Assembly (NCBI GenBank): GCA_003223255.1 | Contig: QHYJ01000137.1 | Span: forward strand, 1 to 64,000 | DNA: 64,000 nt | Reading direction: 5' to 3' | Source of the DNA: Acidobacteriota bacterium | Lineage (GTDB): Bacteria > Acidobacteriota > Terriglobia > Acidiferrales > UBA7541 | Program-made: the position numbers and the translations under genes | Notes under the pieces: generated by a model | The model's database searches: none | Told to the model about the DNA's origin: nothing | Seen by the model: the letters and a program-made list of their open reading frames with translations, nothing else | Part shown: positions 1,965 through 12,446 of the stretch, one piece after another | Numbering within the stretch: the stretch's first letter is position 1 | Layout: every line of letters begins with the position of its first letter

Positions 1965-3173
1965 TCACGACCTCGATTTTCCGTCGCAGCACTCGCCGGG
2001 AGGAATGGGGTTGCCATGCGGGCAGGTTTTGGGGTGGCCAAGGAATGTGCAAATGCGCTGGTCCAGCTCCGGGCTGATGATGTGCTCGAACCGGCAGGCT
2101 TGCGTGTGCGCTTCGGTTTCGTCGACGGAAAAGGTGTCCTTGAACAGGCGCTCTGCCAGACGATGGCGGCGCACCACGTCCCGTGCGCGCTGGCTCCCCT
2201 CGGGAGTGAGTTGAGCCTCCCCGTCATGAAGGGCAACCAAATGCAAATCCGCCATGCGAGAGAGAACACGCGCGGCAGGTTCTTCGGGCACGGTGGAAAG
2301 TTTTCCGGAGGCCCCGGAAGCGCGCAGGCGCGCAACCTCAGCGGGCTTCCCTCCCTCGCCGCAAACCCAAATCTGCTCCAGCAAATGGTCAAAGCGAATC
2401 TCGTCGTCGCCCGAAACGGACTTGCAGCAATCGGAAGTGTTCTCCAGGGGGCAATTCAGTGGATGGCCCGGTCCATGCACCGCCGAGTCGAAATACAAAT
2501 GGCCATGCGCCAACTCGATGCGCCGGTCGGCTTGCCGGGCAATATCCGGATCGTGCGTGACCATCAGAATCGTGTGCCCGGCTTGGTGCAACTTTCGGAA
2601 AATCCTTATGACCATGGTTTCGTTGGCTTCGTCCAGATTGCCGGTGGGCTCGTCAGCGAGAATGAGCTTCGGCTGATTGATGAGCGCGCGCGCAATGGCC
2701 ACGCGCTGCTGTTCGCCGCCGGAAAGCTGCGCGGGCAGATGCGTGAGCCGGTCGCTGAGGCCGACGCGTTTCAGCGCTTCCTGGGCCTCTTTTTCATCGG
2801 TGACGCTGTGAAAATACTGTGCCAGCATCACGTTTTCGAGCGACGTAAGATACGGCACCAGATGAAATTGCTGAAAAACGAAGCCCACTTTTTCTGCGCG
2901 GTAGCGTACCAAATCATTTTCGTCTAGTTTTGCGAGGTCAACTCCGTCAACGACCACGCGACCGGAGGTCAACGTGTCCAAGCCACCGAGAATGTTGATG
3001 AGGGTGGTCTTGCCCGAACCCGAAGGACCCATCAGTGCGACCCACTCGCCGCTGTTGACGGAAAAACTGACGCCGTTGAGCGCGTGGAGAGCGCCGTACT
3101 GCTTGATCAAATTATCGATGACCACTTGCGCCGCAGCGCGCGGCTGCAATTGGACCGGAGCCACTACACTCAC
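1965..3173 (-). CDS. ABC transporter ATPase fused to a DtxR-family metal-sensor domain
   Basis: Residues 1-228 form a MacB/LolD-type ATPase: Walker [10 protein letters not shown] (49-57), signature LSGGEQQ (150-156), Walker B LILADE (170-175) and H-loop THD (206-208). After a Cys-containing linker, residues 259-396 are DtxR/IdeR-like. The known DtxR ligands are all conserved: His337, Glu341 and His356 (DtxR His79, Glu83, His98) and Cys360, Glu363 and His364 (DtxR Cys102, Glu105, His106). The tail is [13 protein letters not shown]. The winged-helix part (260-335) has a loop about nine residues longer than usual, so DNA binding is less certain than metal binding. The start is GTG at 3171-3173, overlapping the upstream permease stop by four bases (GTGA), which implies translational coupling. 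Role inferred: energises the two FtsX-type permeases of an iron system while sensing metal. Confidence 0.88.
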
Positions 3174-5800: not shown

Positions 5801-7063
5801 CTACTTTGGAATCTCGGTACTCGCCTGGGTGAGCGCGGAAATGTCAATCACAATGTCTCCTCCCTCCACGTGCGCGGGCACGCCGATCGGATTGCAGCCT
5901 CCCTCATCCCCAATCGACGGAATATAAATCGCGGACGCGCAGTGCCTACACATGACGTTCTGGCCTTCCTGGCGGTAGCCTTCCGCGCCGCAAATCCGGC
6001 AGGCGTCGAGCGCCACGCCCCAGCCGTTCGGCTTCTTGATAACCATGAAGCGCAAGGACTGGATGCCCGCGTTCACAGTGAAAAGGTGCATCGTTCCATC
6101 CTGCACTGCGCTGATCGGGACGCGCACAATGTCGCCCATGGGATCAATCGCCTGCGCCGCCGGCGGCGCGGAATTGGCCCGGACGTAGATGAAATCCGCA
6201 GTCAAAACGAGAATCACGGCAAGGGAAGCCGTCGCCCCCGCGATCATCCAGCGGCGTTGGCGCCGGTTCTGCGATTCGAGCAGGCGCTTTTCCGCGTCAT
6301 TCAGCGACTCTTTCCTCGCTTTGGCGTGCGAAGCCGCCTGCCATTCCCGCAAAATCAAAAGCATCGCCGCCCCAAAAATGAAAACGAAGAAGAAAAGCTC
6401 GTTGCGAACGATGGGGCCGAGAATGGCCATCTCACCCTTGCTCGAGGGCAGCCAGCGTGCTTCGCTCAGTTCGTGCAAACCGGTCAGCGCAAGTTGGAAC
6501 GCCACGAGCATGAGAATGATGCTTGTTGCGGCGAAAAAGCGGTGCAGGGGAACGCGCAATGTGCCCTTAAAGAAGAACAATCCCACCGCGACGGCGGCCG
6601 CTATCCCGGCAATCGTCCCAATCCAAGTCTCGAAGCCTTCGGTCGAGAGTTCGACGGCGCGCAGAATCAGCGCCAGCTCCACACCTTCGCGCAGAACCAT
6701 CAGAAACACGAACAGAAAGATTCCCCACCCGGCGGCCTTCCCCGCCCGCCCGGCGTAGGACTCCACTTTTTCCTCAATTTCTTTTCGCAGGTGGCGCGCA
6801 GCGCGGTTCATCCATACAATCATGGTAACAACGAAGACCGCGGCCCCTAAGTACATCAGCCCTTCAAAGCCGTCTTCGCTGATGCGCCAGCGCTCCAGCC
6901 CGACCGCCACAGCCAGGCTCAGTGCAGCGGCTCCCGCCACGCCATACCAGACGAAACGTGTCAAGTGGCTGTGGGCCGTGCGCGAGAGATAGACCAGGAT
7001 GATGCCGACGACGAGCGCCGCTTCTACGCCTTCGCGAAGTGCGATAAGGAATGCTGAGAGCAC
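5801..7063 (-). CDS. FTR1-family iron permease with C-terminal DUF2318 domain
   Basis: The 420-residue protein has the two REGVE (RExxE) iron-binding motifs of FTR1/EfeU permeases in helix 1 (residues 10-14) and helix 4 (125-129), plus about seven membrane helices up to residue 300. The C-terminal ~110 residues form a DUF2318-type domain with Cys355/Cys358, Cys372/Cys375 and a GGCNP motif near residue 390, predicted to bind metal or a cluster. The same fusion occurs in the Campylobacter p19-linked FTR1 permease (family knowledge). The start is GTG at 7061-7063, as the protein begins directly with the first helix (MLSAFLIALREGVEAAL). It is the first gene of the operon. No p19 or thioredoxin gene is seen nearby. 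Confidence 0.9.
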   Translation of the reverse strand: MLSAFLIALREGVEAALVVGIILVYLSRTAHSHLTRFVWYGVAGAAALSLAVAVGLERWRISEDGFEGLMYLGAAVFVVTMIVWMNRAARHLRKEIEEKVESYAGRAGKAAGWGIFLFVFLMVLREGVELALILRAVELSTEGFETWIGTIAGIAAAVAVGLFFFKGTLRVPLHRFFAATSIILMLVAFQLALTGLHELSEARWLPSSKGEMAILGPIVRNELFFFVFIFGAAMLLILREWQAASHAKARKESLNDAEKRLLESQNRRQRRWMIAGATASLAVILVLTADFIYVRANSAPPAAQAIDPMGDIVRVPISAVQDGTMHLFTVNAGIQSLRFMVIKKPNGWGVALDACRICGAEGYRQEGQNVMCRHCASAIYIPSIGDEGGCNPIGVPAHVEGGDIVIDISALTQASTEIPK

Positions 7064-7080
7064 GAGCTGTCCTGCAGGTC

Positions 7081-7103
7081 TAGTTGTAAGTCAGTTGCAA
7101 CTA
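7081..7103. promoter_or_regulatory. 23-bp dyad at the iron-operon start site, candidate metalloregulator operator
   Basis: The arms are TAGTTG-N11-CAACTA and 18 of 23 positions are symmetric. The dyad begins 17 bases upstream of the GTG start of the FTR1 gene and overlaps the predicted transcription start, which is where a repressor would act. Binding by the operon's own DtxR-like domain is inference. Confidence 0.5.
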
Positions 7104-7111
7104 CCAGAGGC

Positions 7112-7141
7112 AGTTTACCCTACCGGAACCCTTTGCGTCAA
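7112..7141 (-). promoter_or_regulatory. Predicted sigma-70 promoter of the iron operon
   Basis: On the minus strand the -35 TTGACG (7136-7141) and -10 TAAACT (7112-7117) are separated by 18 bases. Transcription would start near 7105, just ahead of the dyad at 7081-7103. Confidence 0.55.
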
Positions 7142-7142
7142 C

Positions 7143-7159
7143 CGGACTAATTCAGTCCG
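7143..7159. promoter_or_regulatory. Perfect 6-bp palindrome CGGACT-aattc-AGTCCG in the divergent intergenic region
   Basis: This inverted repeat lies just upstream of the iron-operon -35 box and 56 bases before the start codon of the divergent secretin gene. It could be a regulator site for either gene. Only the symmetry is directly seen. Confidence 0.3.
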
Positions 7160-7214
7160 ATTTCCTCATGAACCGCTTCTGCGCAGGAAGAATAGGCTAT
7201 TCTCTTTCTTGCAA

Positions 7215-10200
7215 ATGGGCGTCCTTCGCCAAGCCTCATCCGTGATTGTGTCGAGTCTCTTTTTGTTTTCCCAAGCCTCTGCCCAATCGCAGCCCCCCGC
7301 TTCTCCATCGCCCGCGCAAGGGTCTGCCGAGCGCGCGAAGCCCGACCCGAAGCGCGCGCGCAAAGCCGCCGAGCAGGGAGAAAGGGCCGAAGCGGCGGGC
7401 CAACTCCAGGAAGCCTTGGCCGCCTACGAGGAAGCCGCGCGCTATGCTCCCGAGGACATACAACTTGCATCTCGCGCGGAGGCCTTGCGCGCGAAGCTGG
7501 TGCGAACTTATGCCGACGCCGCGGAGCGCGACGCCTTAGCGGGAAATTTAGACCAGGCAACCGAAGATCTTGGCGCTGCGCTGGCCATCGACCCCGCGAA
7601 CGCCATGGTCATGGAGCGATTGCGGCAAGTCAAAAGCATGGGGGATGGAAGCACTCCTAAAACTATGCCGGAGATTCCCGGTCTGCCTCGATTGAAGCCG
7701 CAGGAGGGAAAGCGCAACCTCGACCTGCGCGGCGACACAAAGACCGTTTACGAACAACTCGCAAGCATATTTGCTGTGAGAGTCACGTTTGATCCCGATC
7801 TGATCGTCAGAAACGTGCGCTTGAGTCTCAATGACGCGGACTTCCAGAATGCCGTCACCATTCTCGCCGCAGAAACCGGAACGTTCTGGCGCCCAGTGAA
7901 TGCCGGGCTGATGTTCGTTGCTGCCGACACGCCGGATAAACGCAGAGAGTACGACTTGCAAGCAGAGCAGACTTTTCCTCTTTCTTCGGCGGTCAGCCCT
8001 GAGGATGCTACGGAAGTGTTGCGCATCGTGCGCGACATCACCGCCTCCACACACATTGACCTCGACGCGCACAATCACAGCATCACAATGCGCGATACTC
8101 CGGAGCGGCTGGCACTTGCGCGAGCGCTCATTCAGCAAATCGAGAGGGCGCGCGGAGAATTGATGCTCGAAATGGAGTTGTTGGAAGTCGACCGCAACAC
8201 GGCGAGGAAGGTGGGCATCGAACCTCCCACGAGCCAGAGACTCGTCGCCCTCCCCCCCAACCTGATCAACCAATTGACCCAGGCAAACAATCTGATTGCC
8301 CTGCAATCGCTCCTGGCCGGAATTTTTGGCACTGCGGCCACTGGAGCTAGTGCTTCGGTCAGCTCGCTGATCCCTCCGTTCGTCGCCATTGGTGGGGGCA
8401 AATCTACATTTCTCCTGACGCTTCCCTCGGCTGCCGCCGACTTTTCCGATGCACTCTCGCTGGTACAAAGCGGCCGCCAGGTTCTCCTGCGCGCGCAGGA
8501 CGGGAGGCCCGCTACGTTCTTTATAGGGCAGCGGTACCCGGACACTCTTTCCCTGCTTTCCGGCAGCCTGGGAACCCCTGCTTTAGCGCCAAATCCCGGC
8601 GGAGCCAGCAACCCCTTTCCCAGCACACCATACTCCGCCGGGAAGGGGCCTGCCGTGCTCGTGGCGGCGGATTTTCGGAATAACGGGTCCCTCGACCTCG
8701 CCGCTGTCAACGAAATCGATAATTCGGTCACGATTCTGCTAAACCAGGGGAATCAGGGAACATTTGCCCAAGCCGCGGGCTCTCCCGTTTCGCTGGGCAC
8801 CGCGCGCGTAGCGGCGCCGGCAACCCATCCCGGAATCGCTTCGGCAACCTTTACCAACAGCGGATGCCAGGACCTGGTCGCTAGTGATCCCCTTGCGAAC
8901 GAGGTGGACGTCCTCGTCAGCAATTGTGACGGCACGTTCCAGAAGCCGGTGGCCATTCCGGCGGGCTTCAATCCCACTGCGATTGCCACGGCCGACTTCA
9001 ACGGCGATGGGAAACAAGATTTTGCCGTGGCCAACGAAGGAGATAATTCAATTTCCATTTTTCTTGGCGACGGCACGGGGAAATTTACCCCCACGACAAA
9101 TTCTCCGTTCCTTCTCGCGCGGCAACTTGCTATTAGCACAACAACTCTGCCTGACGGGGTTTTGAGTACCGCCTACAATGCCACCCTGCAATCGACCGGA
9201 GGAACCGTGCCGGTTACTTGGGCTCTTGCGACAGGGACGCTTCCGGCGGGCTTAACTCTGAATCCCAGCACTGGGGCCGTCACGGGCACGCCGACGGCGG
9301 CTGGAGCCTCGCCGATCACCGTGAAAGTAACCGATTCCGCCAGTCCTCCGAACTCCGTTACCACGGCGCTCAGCATTACCGTCAACGCCGCTGCTCCAAC
9401 TTTCGCGATCTCCACAACTTCGCTTCCCAATGGCAGCATTAACGCGCCTTACGACCAAATCTTGAGCGTTGCCGGAGGAACCGCCCCGTTTACCTGGAGT
9501 ATTGCATCTGGCTCGCTGCCAACGGGCCTGAGCCTGAACGCCAAGGCCGGCGAAATTACGGGAACTCCGACAACCGCTGCCGCACGTGCGAGTTTCACTT
9601 TTACGGTCACAGTTACAGATTCCAGCGCCACCCCTTTGACCGCACAAAAGCAGTTCACGTTGACGCCCGTCACTGCCGCGGAGCGCGGCCCCGTCGCCAT
9701 GGTCATGAATGATTTCAATTCCGATGGAAACCAGGATCTGGCCATCGTGAACCAAGCAACGGACAACGTAACCATTCTTCTGGGTAACGGCGACGGCGCG
9801 TTTACCGAGGCTACCGGCTCGCCGATTTCGCCGGGCGTTGGCAACGGACCAGTGGCAATTGCCGCCGGCGATTTAAACGGAGACAGTAAGCCCGATCTTG
9901 CGGTTGTAAACCAGACGGATGCCACAGTCAGTGTCCTGCTGAATAACGGCGACGCCACTTTCACGGGGGCCACGGGTTCGCCGTTTGCTACGGCGGCCTC
10001 TCCTACTGGTATTGCCATCGCGGATTTTAATCAAGATGGGATTCCAGACATCGCGGTAACAAACGGGGCCGCCAATACCTTCAGCGTATTCGTGGGGCTT
10101 TCGCGAGGGGTGTTCAGCCAAGCCTTTCAGCCACCGGCAGGCCCCGCCGGTTCTACTCCAACCGCCATCGTCGCTGGTACATTCGCGACCAGCGGATTTC

Positions 10201-10772
10201 CGGACGTGGCCATCACCAATGACGTGTCAGGAGCAGCTGGCGACATCACCGTGGTCTTGAGTCCGGCCAGCCTGTTTACCAGCGGTGTGGCGCCTGGAGT
10301 TGCGCAGCAGCCTTACCCGGCTTCCGAATATGTAGACCTTGGCTTGAAGATCAAAGCCACGCCCACGCTTCATCCGAACTCGGAAGTGACCCTGCAGTTG
10401 GAATTTGAAATTCGCGCGCTCTCCGGTAGCAATGCGAACGGCATTCCCATCCTTTCGAATCGGACGTTGTCGCAAACGGTGCGTGTGAAAGAAAATGAGC
10501 CAACGCTCATTACCGGGATGACGGACACCGAAGAAACTCGCTCCATCGTCGGGTTGCCCGGGTTCGCAGAGGTTCCTGGCCTGAGATATGCATTCAGCTC
10601 AAAAAGTCAGTCCTTGCAGGACACGGAGCTGATCATTGTCATTACTCCTCGCCGGTTGCGGCTGGCAGATCACCTTACGCGGACGATCTACGCGGGCCGC
10701 GGCGATATTGGGCACAGCAGCGCACCTGCATTTCGCGGTACTCCCGCGCCCACACTGCCGCAGCCACCATAA
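7215..10772 (+). CDS. Secretin (GspD/PilQ family) with FG-GAP and Ig-like repeats inserted into the barrel domain
   Basis: I chose ATG 7215 because it opens with a signal peptide (MGVLRQASSVIVSSLFLFSQASAQS). Residues 35-150 are TPR-like helices. Residues 170-320 hold secretin N-domains (LDLRGDTKTVYEQLASIF, then ALARALIQQIERARGELMLE). The secretin core begins at about 330 and reaches RPATFFIGQRYPDTLSLLSG (about 434). Here an outer-membrane ring normally continues, but residues 478-1012 are instead FG-GAP/VCBS repeats (DFNGDGKQDFAVAN and DFNSDGNQDLAIVN types) surrounding two Ig-like He_PIG domains (about 637-725 and 729-820). The barrel resumes at YVDLGLKIKATPTLHPNSEV (1036) and ends QDTELIIVITPRRLRL. 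Secretins form outer-membrane channels for type II secretion or type IV pili; no other pilus or secretion gene is adjacent. The stop TAA interrupts a Pro/Gln-rich tail that stays open in frame to 10844. Confidence 0.85.
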   Translation: MGVLRQASSVIVSSLFLFSQASAQSQPPASPSPAQGSAERAKPDPKRARKAAEQGERAEAAGQLQEALAAYEEAARYAPEDIQLASRAEALRAKLVRTYADAAERDALAGNLDQATEDLGAALAIDPANAMVMERLRQVKSMGDGSTPKTMPEIPGLPRLKPQEGKRNLDLRGDTKTVYEQLASIFAVRVTFDPDLIVRNVRLSLNDADFQNAVTILAAETGTFWRPVNAGLMFVAADTPDKRREYDLQAEQTFPLSSAVSPEDATEVLRIVRDITASTHIDLDAHNHSITMRDTPERLALARALIQQIERARGELMLEMELLEVDRNTARKVGIEPPTSQRLVALPPNLINQLTQANNLIALQSLLAGIFGTAATGASASVSSLIPPFVAIGGGKSTFLLTLPSAAADFSDALSLVQSGRQVLLRAQDGRPATFFIGQRYPDTLSLLSGSLGTPALAPNPGGASNPFPSTPYSAGKGPAVLVAADFRNNGSLDLAAVNEIDNSVTILLNQGNQGTFAQAAGSPVSLGTARVAAPATHPGIASATFTNSGCQDLVASDPLANEVDVLVSNCDGTFQKPVAIPAGFNPTAIATADFNGDGKQDFAVANEGDNSISIFLGDGTGKFTPTTNSPFLLARQLAISTTTLPDGVLSTAYNATLQSTGGTVPVTWALATGTLPAGLTLNPSTGAVTGTPTAAGASPITVKVTDSASPPNSVTTALSITVNAAAPTFAISTTSLPNGSINAPYDQILSVAGGTAPFTWSIASGSLPTGLSLNAKAGEITGTPTTAAARASFTFTVTVTDSSATPLTAQKQFTLTPVTAAERGPVAMVMNDFNSDGNQDLAIVNQATDNVTILLGNGDGAFTEATGSPISPGVGNGPVAIAAGDLNGDSKPDLAVVNQTDATVSVLLNNGDATFTGATGSPFATAASPTGIAIADFNQDGIPDIAVTNGAANTFSVFVGLSRGVFSQAFQPPAGPAGSTPTAIVAGTFATSGFPDVAITNDVSGAAGDITVVLSPASLFTSGVAPGVAQQPYPASEYVDLGLKIKATPTLHPNSEVTLQLEFEIRALSGSNANGIPILSNRTLSQTVRVKENEPTLITGMTDTEETRSIVGLPGFAEVPGLRYAFSSKSQSLQDTELIIVITPRRLRLADHLTRTIYAGRGDIGHSSAPAFRGTPAPTLPQPP

Positions 10773-10928
10773 CCGCAACCCCAGCCACCACTTCAGCAGC
10801 CTCCGCCGCCGGAACAACAGCCGCAGCCGCCGCAGCAGCCATGAGCCAGACGGCAGCGGGCTAAAGTAAGCATCGAGAAGGTGGGGAACGGAATTTCCAT
10901 GTCGCAAGCCGGGTGGCGTTGGAGCTGT

Positions 10929-11903
10929 TTATGGCAGCGGTTCGAACACCACCAGCGGCTGGTAGGTCCGCGGCACGACCGCTTCGGCAATGGCAATCAG
11001 TTTGTCTTGTTGGTTGAACACACGCAGCCGCGGAGCTTTCGGCGGTCCGCCATCGAGTTCGGTCGTCGCCCCCGGAGGCGGCTCGGAGCGTCCAGCCTGC
11101 AGTTGGGAAAGAGAAATATTGAACTTTGAGCCGTGGCGCACGCGCTTCTCGATGACCGGCAGAACATTGATGCGCGGGAAATTGGGCAGCAGGTTTTCGA
11201 GCTTGATCAGGCAGTTGGCGAAGCGGCCCGCGCGGCTTGCTTCCGCTAGCTCTTCGAGAGCGATGGCTTGCTCCAGGGAAAATTCTCCCACCGCCGTGCG
11301 CGTGATTTCCGCGAGATGTGCCCCGCAACCGAGCTTCTGCCCCATTTCATGTGCCAGGGAACGGATATACGTGCCGGAAGAACATTCGATGACAAAACGC
11401 GCGACGCTTCCCTCGATCCGTGTCACTCGGTACTCGTAGATTTCTACCTGGACAGGTTTCAACGCGACTTCCTGTTTTTTTCGCGCCAGCTCGTAGGCAG
11501 GACGACCTCCGACTTTCTTCGCGGAGAAGGCCGGCGGTATCTGTTCGAATGGCCCAATGCGCTCTGCCGCAAGCCTTTTCAGCACGCCAGCGTCGAGTGG
11601 CGGCGCGGCGTCCGAGCCTTGCGCTTCGCCGTCAGAATCATAGGTGTCGGTTGCGAACCCGAAGCGGAAACCGGCCGTGTAGCGCTTCCTCCTGCCCGAG
11701 TAAAACTGCACCAGCCGCGTCGCCCGCCCCAGCAGCAACACTAAAACTCCCGTTCCCATCGGATCCAAAGTGCCTAAGTGTCCAATTTGTCGGAAACCCG
11801 CCAGGTGGCGTACCGCATCGACGACGTCGTGCGACGTTTTTCCTTTGGGTTTGTTGATGACGAGCGCGCCGTCAGACGGCGCCGGTTGTGGCTGGCGTGG
11901 CAT
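10929..11903 (-). CDS. truB: tRNA pseudouridine-55 synthase TruB
   Basis: The enzyme converts U55 to pseudouridine in the T-arm of tRNAs. The 324-residue protein has the family core: LVINKPKGKTSHDVV (14-28), the catalytic motif GHLGTLDPMGTG with nucleophile Asp47, a second motif around residue 116-125 (PPAFSAKKVGGRPAYE), and CSSGTYIRSLAHEMG. The C-terminal ~80 residues resemble a PUA-like extension (ARLRVFNQQDKLIAIAE in the parent pattern). It is the last gene of the rimP-nusA-infB operon and is separated from rbfA by a 168-base gap with inverted repeats, so it may have extra regulation. Assignment is secure. Confidence 0.95.
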   Translation of the reverse strand: MPRQPQPAPSDGALVINKPKGKTSHDVVDAVRHLAGFRQIGHLGTLDPMGTGVLVLLLGRATRLVQFYSGRRKRYTAGFRFGFATDTYDSDGEAQGSDAAPPLDAGVLKRLAAERIGPFEQIPPAFSAKKVGGRPAYELARKKQEVALKPVQVEIYEYRVTRIEGSVARFVIECSSGTYIRSLAHEMGQKLGCGAHLAEITRTAVGEFSLEQAIALEELAEASRAGRFANCLIKLENLLPNFPRINVLPVIEKRVRHGSKFNISLSQLQAGRSEPPPGATTELDGGPPKAPRLRVFNQQDKLIAIAEAVVPRTYQPLVVFEPLP

Positions 11904-11911
11904 GCGATAAG

Positions 11912-12053
11912 TTTTCAGTCTTAAGTTCTAAGTTGCAGGTAACGAAAAACCAAGCAAGAGCTCAACCAACGAAGGTGTATCTGCGAAATAAAAAGCAACC
12001 TGTTCTCAGTCGCAGGTTTTCTTGACTTAGCACTCATGGCTTAGAACTGAAAA
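11912..12053. repeat. Imperfect inverted repeats bounding the truB-rbfA gap
   Basis: The left arm contains ttttcagt plus ttctaag (11912-11932) and the right arm is cttagaactgaaaa (12040-12053), whose complement is ttttcagttctaag. A second small stem aacctg/caggtt is near 11997-12018. The gap of 168 bases between co-oriented genes holds no ORF. It could be a short non-autonomous element or an RNA structure. Confidence 0.4.
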
Positions 12054-12071
12054 TTGACAACGGAATACGGA

Positions 12072-12446
12072 TTACTTCCTCTTTGCGGACGGCTCGTCCT
12101 GCTTCACTTCTCTCAAGAGCTGCTCGATGCGTTCCACGCGCTCCTCGGAAAGGTCCAGAGCAAAGTGTAATTCGGGGAGTCGGCGAAGCTGCAAACGCTC
12201 CATGAGTTCGTGACGAATGAATCCCGCGGCATGCTCCAGCGCTTTGATTGCGTCCGCTTGCTCCTGGCTGGTCCCCTTGACGCTGATAAACACGCGCGCG
12301 TGTTTCATGTCCGGCTGCACGCGCACTTCGCTCGCTACAACGCTGCCTTCCAGCCGCGGGTCTTTCAATTCCCCTGCCAGCATGGCGTTGATTTCGTGAG
12401 CGATTTCCTCGCTTACGCGTTCGTGACGATGGTTGGTGGAACTCAT
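12072..12446 (-). CDS. rbfA: Ribosome-binding factor A
   Basis: RbfA helps 16S rRNA 5'-end maturation and late 30S assembly. The 124-residue length is typical. The family pattern is clear: HRHERVSEEIAHEINAMLAGELKDPRL (6-32), VVASEVRVQPDMKHARVFISV (36-56), and FIRHELMERLQLRRLPELHFALD followed by an acidic/basic C-terminus. It sits 20 bases downstream of the DUF503 gene in the classical nusA-infB-rbfA-truB order, which supports the call. Confidence 0.95.
   Translation of the reverse strand: MSSTNHRHERVSEEIAHEINAMLAGELKDPRLEGSVVASEVRVQPDMKHARVFISVKGTSQEQADAIKALEHAAGFIRHELMERLQLRRLPELHFALDLSEERVERIEQLLREVKQDEPSAKRK

Follow-up and report, generated by a model that had tools for sequence, protein, structure and literature searches.

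How can a secretin close its pore when a large folded domain has been inserted into it, and where in the channel does that domain lie? The question is raised by one gene in the window analysed here (64,000 nucleotides of contig QHYJ01000137.1 from an Acidobacteriota bacterium), whose product has 589 unaligned residues within its secretin region. To our knowledge, short gate loops, with about 30 residues from pivot to pivot, seal the pore in the known secretins, which differ from one another solely in their apical loop and N-domains. The longest open reading frame of the gene (6999-10772, plus strand) has 1257 amino acids, and its numbering is followed in this text. Translation is likely to start at Met73, at position 7215, since the longer frame overlaps the divergent FTR1 gene and Met73 begins a signal-peptide-like stretch; this start also gives the numbering of the preliminary description of the locus. 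The parts of the protein and the features beside it are given in Table 1. The Secretin_N match (E 2.5e-6, 28.0 bits) falls marginally below the Pfam cut-off of 28.2, and an N1-like fold appears in the full-length model.

Table 1. Features of the secretin gene and its divergent neighbour (positions in the window; aa, residues of the longest reading frame).
Feature	Position	Strand	Remarks
FTR1 iron permease with FtrD-like domain	5801..7063	-	Divergent neighbour, first of the FTR1-FtsX-FtsX-ABC/DtxR genes, synteny partner
Conserved near-perfect palindrome AGTTGTAAGTCAGTTGCAACT (AGTTGYAANTNANTTRCAACT)	7082..7102	.	Divergent FTR1-secretin intergenic region
Gate-propeller secretin CDS	7215..10772	+	1185 aa counted from Met73 of the longest ORF
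Probable signal peptide MGVLRQASSVIVSSLFLFSQASAQ	7215..7286	+	Judged by eye, no predictor
N-terminal TPR-like helical region, aa 117-214	7347..7640	+	Weak TPR matches; helices in model
Probable periplasmic N-domains: N1-like fold aa 239-309, Secretin_N aa 332-385	7713..8153	+	Pfam and model
Secretin core, first part, and apical/lip region, up to gate pivot glycine G510 (FFIGQRYP)	8160..8528	+	
N-terminal gate arm, aa 511-546	8529..8636	+	Low-confidence linker in model; propeller closing strand aa 542-549
Propeller blades 1-3 (FG-GAP)	8637..9113	+	Pfam, motifs, alignment, model
Two He_PIG Ig-like domains nested between blades 3 and 4	9114..9683	+	Pfam, alignment, model
Propeller blades 4-7 (FG-GAP)	9684..10268	+	Pfam, motifs, alignment, model
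C-terminal gate arm, aa 1091-1114 QQPYPASEYVDLG, and second pivot glycine G1115	10269..10343	+	
Secretin core, second part	10314..10673	+	PF00263 HMM 51-166 at aa 1106-1218; aligned region to aa 1225

The two parts of the secretin core belong to one domain, because both align to the insert-free orthologs L035 and L036 (620 and 618 aa), at 38% and 52% identity and with only 25 aa between them, and because L035 gives a single continuous PF00263 match (HMM positions 16-167); in the query this Pfam match has an E-value of 5e-24. Whether the two halves fit one secretin had been a point to check in the preliminary description, whose break points, near residues 440 and 1036, agree to within a few residues with ours (about 512 and 1108 in the numbering of the reading frame). 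We regard the protein as a secretin by homology with, as far as we found, an unprecedented site for a large domain. It does not reach the curated cut-offs of the GspD equivalog TIGR02517 (61.6 bits against 351) or of PilQ TIGR02515 (56.8 bits against 284), and the PF00263 match that adjoins pilM/pilP genes in this genome is a different gene, on contig C109.

The genome is a draft of 428 contigs, a circumstance in which a join between unrelated sequences, by misassembly or as a chimera, might be suspected. Such an artefact has practically no probability here: 60 loci from other, independent assemblies, with conserved synteny, have inserts of 369-681 aa at this very site, the frame is intact, GC content stays between 0.54 and 0.60 across the parts of the gene, and composition is even over the junctions. 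The insertion is thus conserved in related genomes, a check that the preliminary description had proposed, and is not an assembly join, which by that description would have refuted it.

By alignment, the insertion belongs to the central gate (Gate 1), where a pivot glycine stands on either side of it. In f1 pIV this gate is bounded by Gly267 and Gly297, 30 residues apart, with the lip region upstream at residues 199-234 (PMC8563730), and in the central gate of XcpD G466 is a proven pivot and T477 and S480 are tip residues (PMC10550240). When L035 is aligned to XcpD (5wln), the glycine of its FFLGERFP motif falls on G466 and a second glycine on G496, the four XcpD positions mapping onto the L035 loop between FFLGERFP and QFEDLG; through this ortholog, the insert of the query corresponds to the gate tip, T477/S480. 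The VcGspD entry 5wq9 reads IVAEEVPVITG from residue 451, with an alanine at 453 that falls on the same first pivot, and G453A is a hinge mutation described for VcGspD (PMC7545093). The equivalents of G466 and G496 in the query are G510 and G1115, which are 605 residues apart, and both glycines are kept in 38 of the 38 orthologs printed. The outer-face region (apical, β-lip and cap-gate) lies upstream of the insertion and is of ordinary size. The earlier placement of the insertion in the outer-face loop of PulD/PilQ therefore gives way to one at the tip of Gate 1, inside the channel.

Members of the GspD/XcpD type of type II secretion (TIGR02517, PF00263, including those with a Vibrio-type 'top gate') share with the query the core, a probable Secretin_N domain, the pivot glycines of the central gate and the pre-gate apical region, but have 30 residues between the pivots where the query has 605. 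The optional top gate of Vibrio-type secretins resides in the apical loop, upstream of the gate, whereas the query has its extra domain in the central gate, after the first pivot, and we have rejected a top-gate assignment on these grounds (PMC10550240). Insert-free orthologs (L167-L169, L035 and L036) are the same gene, with 33-42% identity over the secretin halves and 51-52% for the C-terminal half of L035/L036, but, unlike the query, they have a gate loop of 25-26 aa without propeller. These natural short gates offer a ready comparison for studying how secretins seal and open. Like the query, the TPR-secretin-cohesin paralogs (L077 in the same genome, L183-L186 in the class) combine TPR, secretin and an extra domain of extracellular type; their cohesin is C-terminal and their gate loops are short, whereas the extra domain of the query is in the gate. 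L183-L186 were also the four loci checked among the long secretin frames (889-1057 aa) of other Terriglobia families as candidates for similar inserts, and they have ordinary gates, the extra length being C-terminal or an unrelated upstream frame.

Within the insert, Pfam detects seven FG-GAP_3 stretches (E 1e-38) and two He_PIG domains (E 1e-24), and three of the seven blade motifs precede the He_PIG pair while four follow it. Two He_PIG domains between FG-GAP blocks had been recognized correctly at the outset; the blocks themselves, described as two sets of repeats, are three and four blades of a single seven-bladed propeller, and the motifs and the model rule out two separate FG-GAP domains. 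In orthologs without Ig domains, blade 3 passes directly to blade 4 in the alignment to leave an unbroken propeller of about 370-435 residues; one of them (L047) has a 369-aa insert with seven motifs at an even spacing of 48-51 aa. The model of the insert alone has a pLDDT of 86, with blade residues mostly at 90-98. A strand at residues 542-549 precedes blade 1 and the last three strands end near residue 1086, an order which, read from the succession of strands and not from coordinates, suggests that strands from the two ends of the insert jointly close blade 7. Closure of this kind would bring the termini of the propeller together and make insertion into a hairpin loop possible. The propellers among the best Foldseek matches of the insert model include CRTAC1, PVL lectin and LGI1 EPTP with a TMt of 0.74; integrin alpha, CRTAC1 (9etn) and Psathyrella velutina lectin (2bwm) share with the query the repeat family, the predicted seven-bladed fold and DxNxDG-type motifs, but the query propeller differs from them in sitting inside the gate of a secretin and in being interrupted by a pair of Ig domains. 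Of 38 orthologs, 32 have a complete calcium-type motif in blade 3, 23 in blade 4 and 20 in blade 5, and most do not have it in blades 1, 2, 6 and 7. The full-length model is weaker (pTM 0.48, with low confidence for the secretin half and the gate arms), and its Foldseek matches, mostly propellers and cadherin-like chains, include nothing informative on the secretin part.

Propeller and Ig domains often serve in adhesion, and the Foldseek list for the insert also contains cadherin or Ig-like chains, the SraP adhesin and lectins. The secretin part could then do no more than anchor and present the propeller/Ig module, which would be an adhesin, with no functional large channel, and the gain and loss of Ig-type domains between close relatives is what a display surface predicts. 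We consider this improbable, since conservation is higher in the secretin core, at both pivot glycines and in the lip region than in the insert: between the query and L064, for instance, identity is 77% over the C-terminal half and 45-52% in the blades. The difference suggests selection on the channel itself.

Relatives of the N-terminal half are found in 87 of the 89 genomes of the family, in 13 genera, and the propeller extends through the family. In 299 genomes of the class, the closest full-length matches outside the family (in f2, f3, f11 and others) are frames of about 520-890 aa, and the gate gaps of the outgroup matches inspected have 20-26 residues, with 56 in one distant row; in the related Acidoferrales families f2 and f3, to which L167-L169 belong, the gap is 26 aa. 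From these short gaps, a single gain of the propeller, at the base of the family or close to it, is most likely. L035 and L036 (genus g3 of f1; the same as L142 and L143) come from two hot-spring genomes, G041 and G042, which the tree nests inside the propeller clade with their gates of 25 residues. Placing them outside this clade is not rejected by the AU test (p 0.10), and either a loss or a late gain of the propeller would fit the sequences. The record of L143 is labelled 'Bacillota' and is probably a misnamed bin. A search of viral contigs for relatives found none.

Among the orthologs the propeller is a platform for nested domains. Three Big_2 domains occupy the blade 1-2 region in L070, L101 and L102; L064 and L090, in a separate branch, carry a He_PIG pair at the blade 3-4 site of the query while their tree neighbour L095 does not; and the second He_PIG is partly deleted in L060 and L082. 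The query genome has about 150 FG-GAP_3 matches across many reading frames, a strongly expanded family and a ready source of the inserted domain.

The preliminary description had proposed a new secretin architecture. The insertion is indeed real, conserved, large and folded, and no relevant paper on a secretin with FG-GAP, VCBS or propeller repeats was found in the largely open-access literature searched; an earlier automatic annotation of the combination is likely. In one lineage of soil Acidobacteria the very tip of the gate holds, in each subunit, a folded domain of 40-60 kDa that is tolerated and retained, and with such a domain in place either the gate cannot close in the known way or sealing is done otherwise.

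Known secretin rings have 12 to 15 subunits. For a ring of this size with the dimensions of pIV, the propellers would amount to 500-630 kDa, or to 780-970 kDa with the Ig domains, and we compute that 15 propellers (about 627 kDa), perfectly packed, would occupy 119 Å of a channel 90 Å wide. If the usual ring forms, 12-15 propellers are suspended from the gate tips; 13-15 of them are too bulky for the closed pore and cannot pack in it, and the usual convergence of the tips is prevented. pIV measures 96 Å from the extracellular face to N3 (PMC8563730), and secretin gates open by an upward flip towards the outside (PMC10550240, PMC7545093, PMC8563730). Because the mass cannot pack in a closed lumen and known gates flip outward, we favour an arrangement in which the arms are held up and the propellers lie outside.

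The protein would then be an orphan outer-membrane secretin whose Gate 1 hairpin has opened to hold a closed, seven-bladed, integrin-type FG-GAP propeller, with two Ig domains projecting from between blades 3 and 4 in the clade of the query. Every subunit of the ring may carry one propeller on two gate arms that remain swung to the cell exterior and no longer meet, and the mouth of the pore could be covered on the outside by a crown or plug of propellers and Ig domains. Such a crown would take over the barrier role from the converging gate tips and present a repeated, partly calcium-dependent binding surface. We infer the ring, the side of the membrane and the role in sealing or binding, and hold the arrangement as a whole to be about evenly poised between right and wrong. 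A surface cap, as the preliminary description had suggested, accordingly is still the picture that we favour as a possibility, but it would be borne by the gate arms, and the grounds for it are steric. A further proposal is a ligand-gated secretin, in which the propeller/Ig crown would be a receptor, and its ligand, whether calcium, a glycan or the surface of a mineral or matrix, would move the arms to open or seal the giant pore. Ligand-driven gating is a mode that we do not know from any secretin, and the idea must count as a long shot.

The propellers could instead lie on the periplasmic side, within the vestibule of the N-domains or beneath it, where they would receive substrate or form a ring on which an inner-membrane platform docks, with the gate still closing above them. 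Secretin N-modules do dock inner-membrane partners (PMC10550240), and propellers may fold in the periplasm ahead of ring assembly. Contig C150 carries both T2SSF proteins found in the genome, together with pilB/T/C/S/R-like genes and a second T2SSE/T2SSF/PilO-like cluster, and none of the four PF00263 matches of the genome lies on that contig. However, known gates swing outwards and not inwards, a vestibule of about 74-90 Å would accommodate 13-15 propellers no more easily (PMC8563730), and no platform gene adjoins the query secretin at its locus. We consider a periplasmic location unlikely, albeit with an appreciable chance of being correct, and retain the extracellular crown.

In most of the family the gene is flanked by truB (convergent) and by the FTR1-FtsX-FtsX-ABC/DtxR set (divergent). 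This set is not next door in the insert-free G041 and G042; truB neighbours four of the five insert-free orthologs, and FTR1 is also present at L167, and at L168 without truB in view. A simple functional link between the propeller and the FTR1 operon was discarded, as f2 and f3 have FTR1 yet no propeller. The neighbours of outgroup secretins (in f11 and other families of the class) include no consistent functional partner. The palindrome in Table 1 lies 19 bases ahead of the FTR1 start and has a single zero-mismatch occurrence in the genome; of 39 regions upstream of orthologs, 35 contain it with at most four mismatches (the reversed pattern in 0 of 39), and it is not present where FTR1 is missing (L035, L036). 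It is probably the operator of a metal regulator. Within the FTR1-FtsX-FtsX set, the gene at 1965-3173 (minus strand) of the window encodes an ABC-transporter ATPase fused to the metal-binding C-terminal domain of a DtxR-type iron-dependent repressor, and looks like a metal-sensing ATPase.

The genome has four PF00263 matches: the query, the PilQ-like gene by pilM/pilP, the gene of the TPR-secretin-cohesin paralog, and L075 (G000:C30; frames at 7468-9432 and 10157-12160, both minus strand). At L075 a secretin of 654 aa adjoins a multihaem cytochrome (MtrC/MtrF-like match), a Crp-type regulator and a multicopper oxidase, a neighbourhood that is possibly an outer-membrane electron-transfer locus.
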